Assembly: GCA_945787445.1 (NCBI GenBank)
Contig: CALZHT010000049.1
Coordinates: 1 to 50,218, forward strand
Direction of reading: 5' to 3'
DNA length: 50,218 bases
Source of the DNA: an uncultured Desulfobulbaceae bacterium
GTDB taxonomy: Bacteria; Desulfobacterota; Desulfobulbia; Desulfobulbales; CALZHT01
The translations under genes and the position numbers were made by a program. The notes below the pieces were generated by a model that ran no database searches, was not told where the DNA came from, and worked only from the letters and a program-made list of their open reading frames with translations. Positions 47,400 through 48,160 of this stretch are shown piece after piece; within the stretch, counting starts at the first letter, position 1; each line of letters begins with the position of its first letter.

Positions 47400-47475
47400 G
47401 GGTCGTTAACTCAGTCGGTAGAGTATCTGCCTTTTAAGCAGAGAGTCGCTGGTTCGAGCCCAGCACGACCCACCA
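47400..47475 (+). tRNA. tRNA-Lys (anticodon TTT)
   Basis: The 76-nt sequence GGGTCGTTAACTCAGTCGGT... closes with ACGACCC-A-CCA. The anticodon stem CTGCC/GCAG region encloses CTTTTAA, giving anticodon TTT. T arm CTGGTTCGAGCCCAG and D arm are regular; CCA is encoded. tRNA-Glu follows after 26 bases. Confidence 0.95.
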
Positions 47476-47501: not shown

Positions 47502-47579
47502 GTCCCCATCGTCTAGCCAGGTCCAGGACACCGGCCTTTCACGCCGGCAACACCGGTTCAAATCCGGTTGGGGACGCCA
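47502..47579 (+). tRNA. tRNA-Glu (anticodon TTC)
   Basis: The 78-nt sequence GTCCCCATCGTCTAGCCAGG... closes with GGGGACG-CCA. The anticodon stem CCGGC/GCCGG encloses CTTTCAC, anticodon TTC. The T arm ACCGGTTCAAATCCGGT is regular; CCA is encoded. This copy is intact, unlike the two decayed copies that follow. Confidence 0.95.
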
Positions 47580-47587
47580 TTTATATA

Positions 47588-47623
47588 GGGGAATCAGTCT
47601 AATACTGGTTCCCTATTTTTTTT
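47588..47623 (+). terminator. Rho-independent terminator behind tRNA-Glu
   Basis: GGGAATCAGT (47589-47598) and ACTGGTTCCC (47604-47613) pair with one G-T wobble, followed by TATTTTTTTT. It ends the tRNA-Lys/tRNA-Glu transcript. Confidence 0.85.
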
Positions 47624-47695
47624 CCATGCCCAGGACATCCCGCTTGTCCAAGCGGGACAACACCGGTTTCCCGCTCTGCGGGATTGGGGACGCCA
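47622..47695 (+). pseudogene. tRNA-Glu pseudogene (second tandem unit)
   Basis: This copy keeps CCAGGACA, CAACACCGGTT and the 3' end ATTGGGGACGCCA of tRNA-Glu, but its anticodon arm is replaced by a perfect palindrome, TCCCGCTTGTCCAAGCGGGA, and its T arm by TCCCGCTCTGCGGGA. The acceptor 5' strand is lost (TTCCATGCCCAGG). It is not a functional tRNA. Confidence 0.7.
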
Positions 47696-47702
47696 ATATA
47701 TC

Positions 47703-47737
47703 GGGGAATCAGTCTAGCACTGGTTCCCCATTTTTAT
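47703..47737 (+). terminator. Second copy of the tRNA-Glu terminator
   Basis: GGGGAATCAGT and ACTGGTTCCCC pair around CTAGC, followed by ATTTTTATTT. It is a near-identical duplicate of the terminator at 47588-47623 and comes with the tandem tRNA-Glu unit. Confidence 0.75.
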
Positions 47738-47739
47738 TT

Positions 47740-47790
47740 ACTAGGTCCAGGACATCCCGCTTGGACAAGCGGGACAACAATGGTATATAT
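47740..47790 (+). pseudogene. Third, truncated tRNA-Glu-derived unit
   Basis: ACTAGGTCCAGGACATCCCG matches the D-arm side of tRNA-Glu (CTAGCCAGGTCCAGGACA), then CCCGCTTGGACAAGCGGG and ACAACAATGG. It stops before any T arm. The loop of the palindrome is GA here and TC in unit 2, as if the hairpin were flipped. Confidence 0.6.
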
Positions 47791-48160
47791 ACGGCTTATA
47801 ATCTGTTATTTATAATAATATTATAAACAACTATAAAAGAACCGAGTAAAATAGTTAGGACACTGGCCCAGGGCTGGTTTGATTTTCAATATCAAGAGGG
47901 GTATTTGATTATTGCGAACAATCTAAAAGGCACTTCCTAGAATAATCAGGGGATAGACACCCTATTTTGTTGAAAGTGGATGATTATAAGCTCAAACGGG
48001 AGGTGCCATTTAATGGGTGACTCCTTACACGATCCTTTAATCCCTAAAGGTGAATTGCACTTAAATGGCTGCACATCGTCAGCTCCTCAACCTATTTCTG
48101 CATATGCCTGCGTCGCCTCCTCCCCAAAGGCCTTGTTATCCTTTTGAATGTAAATTCGCA
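47791..48160. other. Gene-free gap, AT-rich
   Basis: No gene is supported in these 370 bases. AATCAGGGGATAGACACCCT at about 47943-47962 resembles flanks of REP-type transposase elements, but no transposase is present. A 44-codon frame from ATG 48013 has no recognisable content. Confidence 0.35.

Follow-up and report, generated by a model that had tools for sequence, protein, structure and literature searches.

Palindromes in place of tRNA arms: tandem tRNA-Glu remnants in a Desulfobulbaceae genome and their probable link to small GIY-YIG nucleases

Behind an intact tRNA-Glu gene of an uncultured Desulfobulbaceae bacterium, two partial tRNA copies stand in tandem with short palindromes where tRNA arms belong, and copies of the same kind lie beside ordinary tRNA genes in many unrelated bacteria, often next to a gene for a very small GIY-YIG protein. 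The reading that we favour, and hold to be reasonably probable, is that both units are what decay and loss of the nuclease gene have left of small mobile elements, members of a family that invades tRNA genes and pairs short palindromes with a GIY-YIG nuclease of ~80-95 aa.

Results

A tRNA-Glu gene followed by two arm-swapped units

The window, meaning the whole 50,218-nucleotide stretch analysed, is contig C49 of a 4.46-Mb draft genome (a single draft assembly in 227 contigs). On its + strand, an intact tRNA-Lys(UUU) gene (47400..47475; ARAGORN and Rfam) is the upstream neighbour of the parent of the copies, an intact tRNA-Glu(UUC) gene (47502..47579; ARAGORN; Rfam, 60.6 bits) that is followed by its terminator, a hairpin with a T-run (47582..47623, + strand; sequence, repeat family D2 and fold). 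The D-arm tail AGGTCCAGGACA starts at 47519, 47626 and 47743, a spacing of 107 and 117 bp; ARAGORN, Rfam and repeat comparisons bear out the first-pass annotation, which had described an intact gene and two partial copies at these distances. Unit 2 consists of a D-arm tail copy, ATGCCCAGGACA (47626..47637, + strand, repeat family D3), the palindrome TCCCGCTTGTCCAAGCGGGA replacing the anticodon arm (47638..47657, unstranded; sequence, repeat comparison and genome pattern search), the palindrome TCCCGCTCTGCGGGA replacing the T loop and 3′ T stem (47669..47683, unstranded; sequence and pattern search), the 3′ end of the tRNA copy, TTGGGGACGCCA (47684..47695, + strand, repeat family D6), and a second copy of the terminator, 88% identical to the first (47697..47738, + strand, repeat family D2). 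Unit 3 has the D-arm tail copy (47743..47754, + strand, repeat family D3), the palindrome TCCCGCTTGGACAAGCGGGA replacing the anticodon arm (47755..47774, unstranded; repeat and pattern search) and, as its last recognisable tRNA bases, CAACAATGGT (47775..47784, + strand, repeat family D1). The terminator was thus duplicated together with unit 2, and the earlier suggestion that the units have their own terminator is right for unit 2 and wrong for unit 3, which stops after CAACAATGGT. Directly past the last unit, the window contains an AT-rich 13-bp inverted repeat, GTTATTTATAATA/TATTATAAACAAC (47805-47831).

Base-by-base comparison with the intact gene confirms that palindromes occupy the anticodon and T arms of unit 2 and, inverted, the anticodon arm of unit 3. 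In particular, the intact gene reads GGACA, CCGGCCTTTCACGCCGG, CAACACCGGT across its anticodon arm and unit 2 reads GGACA, TCCCGCTTGTCCAAGCGGGA, CAACACCGGT, while the T loop and 3′ T stem have become TTCCCGCTCTGCGGGA; whole arms are exchanged and the tRNA bases on either flank are kept. The general form of the palindrome is TCCCGC-N-GCGGGA, found in the anticodon arm of both units and once in a T arm, and the unit 3 palindrome is the exact reverse complement of that in unit 2. In a functional tRNA gene the acceptor stem and the anticodon and T loops are all intact, which is true of neither unit: unit 2 is without its 5′ half and without either loop, and the only ARAGORN calls near the units are the Lys and Glu genes, the units themselves being rejected. 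A profile search found no GIY-YIG gene in the window, and because no nuclease gene remains there, the link to a nuclease is invisible from the window alone.

Palindromes and swapped copies elsewhere in the genome

The 20-bp palindrome TCCCGCTTGNNCAAGCGGGA has 5 copies in 4.46 Mb, all inside tRNA-Glu copies of two separate genes (reversed-pattern control, 0), which agrees with the earlier judgement that the palindromes did not arise by chance. The genome search that the first-pass annotation had proposed therefore did return further copies, and all were in tRNA-Glu copies; since the palindrome recurs in this genome and in others, it is not unique to the locus; uniqueness is what had been named in advance as counting against the idea. 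The three copies outside the window surround the tRNA-Glu(CUC) gene of contig C13, where they take the anticodon-arm position and have the flanking bases of that gene on either side; no GIY-YIG gene was seen at this array. A looser palindrome search of the genome hit 44 places, versus 7 for its control. Further, contig C81 has two arm-swapped tRNA-Asp copies, one with both arms exchanged, and contig C31 has a tRNA-Pro copy with a swapped T arm. The proposal of a palindromic element that targets tRNA arms is thereby supported, and it extends to Glu(CUC), Asp and Pro copies and to dozens of other genomes. A tRNA survey of the genome recovered 37 tRNA-family genes in intact form; besides these it picked up one swapped Glu copy right at the cut-off and one weak fragment, located in the tmRNA.

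Several other repeats surfaced in these searches. Copies of TCCCGCTACAGCGGGA (L009, L010, L012, L013, L015, L060, L061, L064 and L066) were rejected as tRNA-type and left uncounted because each marks the middle of a different repeat of ~150-180 bp, an element with inverted ends (TATACA..TGTATA) that looks like a MITE without relation to tRNAs. The sequence TCCCGCTGAAGCGGGA lies within a CCCCGCAG/CTGCGGGG hairpin repeat (L062:436-459 and L052:597-612), a palindrome within a palindrome outside tRNA genes, and many copies of TTTAGGCACTT/AAGTGCCTAAA surround a tRNA-Ser gene of contig C46 (L055:150-750).

Swapped copies in other genomes

Named bacterial and archaeal genomes were scanned with a pattern consisting of the D-arm tail and TCCCGC-N(3-12)-GCGGGA, and 57 stretches matched where, by our estimate, ~5 were expected by chance. 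Ten of these loci (L101, L106, L111, L114, L118, L129, L133, L136, L144 and L151) were dropped as chance matches because their right border has no tRNA. The right border is also tRNA in 59 of 71 copies (43 loci), though the pattern made no such demand. Most loci belong to Desulfobacterales or other Deltaproteobacteria; the rest include Ignavibacteria, Falkowbacteria, Saccharibacteria and other Patescibacteria, Gracilibacteria, Neomarinimicrobiota, Calditrichaeota and Methylomirabilota, the comparison loci coming mostly from metagenome assemblies. Copies located 5′ of an intact tRNA retain its 5′ half, and those located 3′ retain 10-12 bp of the D arm and the 3′ half. Loops vary freely between copies, 7 nt being the commonest loop length. 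Moreover, when over-long Asp arms (18-34 bases) were sought in 395 genomes with the arm sequence left free, five of the seven matches had TCCCG palindromes; within the window genome's class, this genome was the only one with such an arm.

The exact 20-bp palindrome is absent from 57 same-order relatives, two same-family genomes among them. The general TCCCGC-N-GCGGGA motif is common in same-order relatives; in most of them it does not exceed its control, and the motif alone therefore says little. Overall, swapped-arm copies are not a local peculiarity, being present beside ordinary tRNA genes in many unrelated bacteria.

A small GIY-YIG nuclease at tRNA genes

At several scanned loci, an ORF of ~85 aa reads directly into the D-arm copy. 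Its protein has a GIY-YIG domain (Pfam PF01541, 58-75 bits for four representatives), and a profile search places such genes next to swapped copies at 17 scanned loci in several phyla, many of them separating the intact tRNA from the swapped copy. The window genome has one as well: a truncated GIY-YIG gene on contig C81 (PF01541, 48.8 bits), flanked by a tRNA-Asp 3′ half and terminator on one side and the copy with both arms swapped on the other. The full version of the layout is an intact tRNA, a terminator, the GIY-YIG gene, a palindrome for the anticodon arm, the tRNA 3′ half and a terminator, with the end of the GIY-YIG gene often merging into 10-12 bp of D arm; some loci have an additional upstream 5′ half that terminates in a palindrome. 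No empty site for an element of this tRNA type was found. Among Glu copies, only L134 (Saccharibacteria) has a directly attached GIY-YIG gene; L113 was rejected as a Glu-type nuclease, as it belongs to a tRNA-Arg copy.

A palindrome-independent search, by protein only, of 395 genomes of the phylum gave matches in 113; at the loci read, for tRNA-Asp, tRNA-Ala(GGC) and tRNA-Asn(GTT), an intact tRNA is followed by a GIY-YIG gene and then by a partial tRNA copy. The palindromes vary by nuclease group, with GTCGNATCGAC for Ala and the TCCGCCTGAGGCGGA and AATCCCGC types for Asn. A nuclease tree (146 domains, 89 columns, with many forks open) tracks the neighbouring tRNA, needing 46 label changes against a shuffled mean of 86.6 (0 of 200 shuffles as low), and has one-tRNA clades for Asp, Asn, Ala and Lys. 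Locus L175 carries tandem tRNA-Asn fragments with ATTCCGAAGGATTTCGGAAT, several near-identical units 5′ of a GIY-YIG gene, and is a second tandem array comparable to that of the window. On a plasmid of Planktothrix agardhii (L289), a REP-less GIY-YIG gene has a type IIL restriction enzyme on one side and DISARM drmA on the other, a stray copy in a defence region.

A sister clade bracketed by REP palindromes

A sister clade of GIY-YIG genes, with one member in this genome (contig C22), is enclosed by inverted palindromes in the order GTC-ATTCC..GGAAT-CCAG, gene, CTGG-ATTCC..GGAAT-GAC. Among 43 sister-clade loci (30 from the phylum sample and 13 plasmid-collection records), 27 have such hairpins no further than 120 nt away on both sides, compared with ~2% per side for shuffles, 1 of 41 for offset windows in the same loci and 0 of 17 for a control clade of UPF0213-like proteins that have neither a tRNA neighbour nor palindromes. 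The left and right arms match at 0.815, versus 0.634 when permuted (0 of 2000 permutations as high), and GTC stands on both outer edges at 18 of the 27 two-sided loci. The C22 palindrome, gtcATTCCGGCGAACGCCGGAATccag, occurs exactly twice in the genome, once on each side of the C22 gene, as itself and as its inverse partner; the element ends read GTC-ATTCCGGCG..CGCCGGAAT-CCAG, with CGTC at the right end and AGTC at the left, and they have the tag, the AT-starting stem and the CCA tail of CGTC REPs. This region, C22:14142-14490 (L157/L250), is a candidate for a self-contained mobile unit of ~350 bp. Of three cases of Sphingobium strains that are without the gene, two have a single palindrome of the same type at that position and the third has another inverted repeat. 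On Azospirillum lipoferum plasmid AZO_p3 (L280), a REP-bracketed GIY-YIG gene separates sufB from sufC; it is missing from several further Azospirillum plasmids, their sufB-sufC spacer being too diverged to place the junction.

Discussion

Relation to known systems

RAYT/REPtron systems consist of a Y1 tyrosine transposase gene flanked by GTAG REPs. The present elements resemble them in having a small gene between inverted REP palindromes and differ in the enzyme fold, which is GIY-YIG and not HUH/Y1, in the CGTC type of their repeats and in a branch specialised on tRNA genes; the genes that are flanked encode GIY-YIG proteins, so they are not RAYTs. The CGTC-tagged REP superfamily, which includes Neisseria dRS3, was described without a dedicated transposase, none being flanked by CGTC repeats (Di Nocera et al. 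2013, PMC3733652). Both sets are short GC-rich palindromes with CCCGC-type stems that occur in unrelated phyla and are sometimes nested in other palindromes; unlike in the 2013 work, which found no enzyme, such repeats here bracket a GIY-YIG gene. The window palindrome itself has a shorter core and neither CGTC tag nor AT start, and it lies in tRNA arms. Its copies are preceded by GACA (which reads CATC) in place of an unpaired CGTC, and the CGTC seen in Asp copies forms only because the tRNA supplies CG. Where REP stems have 8-9 bp, an AT start and a loop of 4-5 nt, its stem, TCCCGCTTG..CAAGCGGGA, has 9 bp, a TC start and a 2-nt centre, and the T-arm palindrome has a stem of 6 bp. It is related to CGTC REPs but, by its tag and stem, no formal member.

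Phage T4/T6 SegB, a GIY-YIG enzyme, cuts within tRNA genes and drives tandem amplification (PMC13096335). Like SegB and other free-standing GIY-YIG homing endonucleases, the present proteins have the GIY-YIG catalytic domain and a close tie to a target gene, as seen in the one-tRNA clades. In contrast, they are a GIY-YIG domain alone, reside in cellular genomes, carry part of a tRNA and leave palindrome-swapped halves, and their cutting is presumed. The elements are REPtron-like with another enzyme, or homing-endonuclease-like with palindromic ends. The open literature, to which our search was confined (subscription journals lay outside it), yielded no work joining GIY-YIG proteins with REPs or with bacterial tRNA fragments.

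How the units may have formed

The association of the nuclease genes with swapped copies, and the anatomy of those loci, are observed; from them we infer cleavage, mobility and a route by which one hairpin would be exchanged for another. The GIY-YIG nuclease would cut at hairpins formed by tRNA arms, and repair from a copy of the element could then rebuild the tRNA and leave behind halves in which a palindrome stands for an arm. The nuclease probably recognises the palindromes, since the sister clade has CGTC-type REPs as its inverted ends. Breaks, and recombination between repeated tRNA pieces, may have produced tandem units, as SegB does at tRNA genes, and later loss of the nuclease gene would leave units of ~107-117 bp like those in the window. 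Several observations stand against this explanation: Glu copies rarely have a nuclease beside them, and none lies in the window or was seen at the C13 array; the search for an empty site of the tRNA type brought up none; a single insertion does not account for the exchange of T arms in addition to anticodon arms; and the palindrome here is without the CGTC tag and AT start, in a genome with 11 matches to Y1-type transposases.

Hairpins might also have spread without any dedicated enzyme, by stalling replication so that template switching or gene conversion copied palindromes across redundant tRNA copies. The opposite orientations in units 2 and 3 are as expected of hairpin-mediated inversion, one Sphingobium site has different palindromes in different strains, and the palindrome also occurs inside a non-tRNA hairpin repeat. 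However, such a process predicts neither GIY-YIG genes beside swapped copies nor clades that each track one tRNA, and it leaves the recurrence of TCCCGC across several phyla unexplained, so that we regard it as unlikely, if the strongest of the alternatives.

Slightly less probable still is a role for Y1/RAYT tyrosine transposases, which act on single-stranded hairpins: the palindromes would be REPs that these enzymes move, and the GIY-YIG genes bystanders. RAYTs are the known REP enzymes, and this genome has the Y1_Tnp matches mentioned above; nevertheless, among ten Y1_Tnp loci read, a TCCCGC palindrome lies beside just one, in its flanks, and none has a palindrome pair like that of the REP-type GIY-YIG genes. 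The 2013 survey records REPs that sit within target palindromes of other genomes, and it found no transposase flanked by CGTC repeats (PMC3733652).

The anticodon and T loops of tRNA genes are classic integration sites. Attachment-site scars of tyrosine-recombinase elements could accordingly be imagined, given insertion at the anticodon and T arms, rebuilt tRNAs with leftover fragments, 5′ and 3′ halves on opposite sides of the intact gene, and the prevalence of 7-nt loops. This origin is very improbable: integration would keep the core arm sequence, whereas here the palindrome replaces the arm at both junctions, no element would fit into the ~107-bp spacing of some units, the gene that recurs beside the copies is of the GIY-YIG type, and an unsystematic reading of the loci turned up no integrase. 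Equally improbable is that the units were retained as altered tRNAs or, as the first-pass annotation had considered for the hairpins, as functional small RNAs, since their better folding than shuffles (z of -4.5 and -3.2 for units 2 and 3) stems from the palindromes and the terminator kept in unit 2, while the palindrome is absent from same-family genomes, loops vary, one half of the tRNA is missing from most copies and that or the acceptor stem from the units, and ARAGORN rejects the units in the window.

Implications

Beyond the reading of the units as remnants of a tRNA-invading family, a broader one is possible, to which we give somewhat less than even weight: small GIY-YIG nucleases would be the missing mobilising enzymes of CGTC-type repeats, with a tRNA-specialised branch that swaps arms for its own palindrome in many phyla. 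Should that hold, and at the same tentative level, the hairpin-for-hairpin replacement of tRNA arms would be a process not described before. CGTC REPs, left without an enzyme in 2013, have a possible and specific partner in a ~90-aa GIY-YIG nuclease gene that those repeats bracket; REP palindromes fill many bacterial genomes, and such a partner would make the question of their enzyme testable at the bench. The tRNA branch, if real, would account for one kind of broken tRNA copy that troubles tRNA annotation, would make tRNA hairpins sites of invasion for palindromes, and would provide a bacterial counterpart to phage SegB, a nuclease that multiplies tRNA segments.
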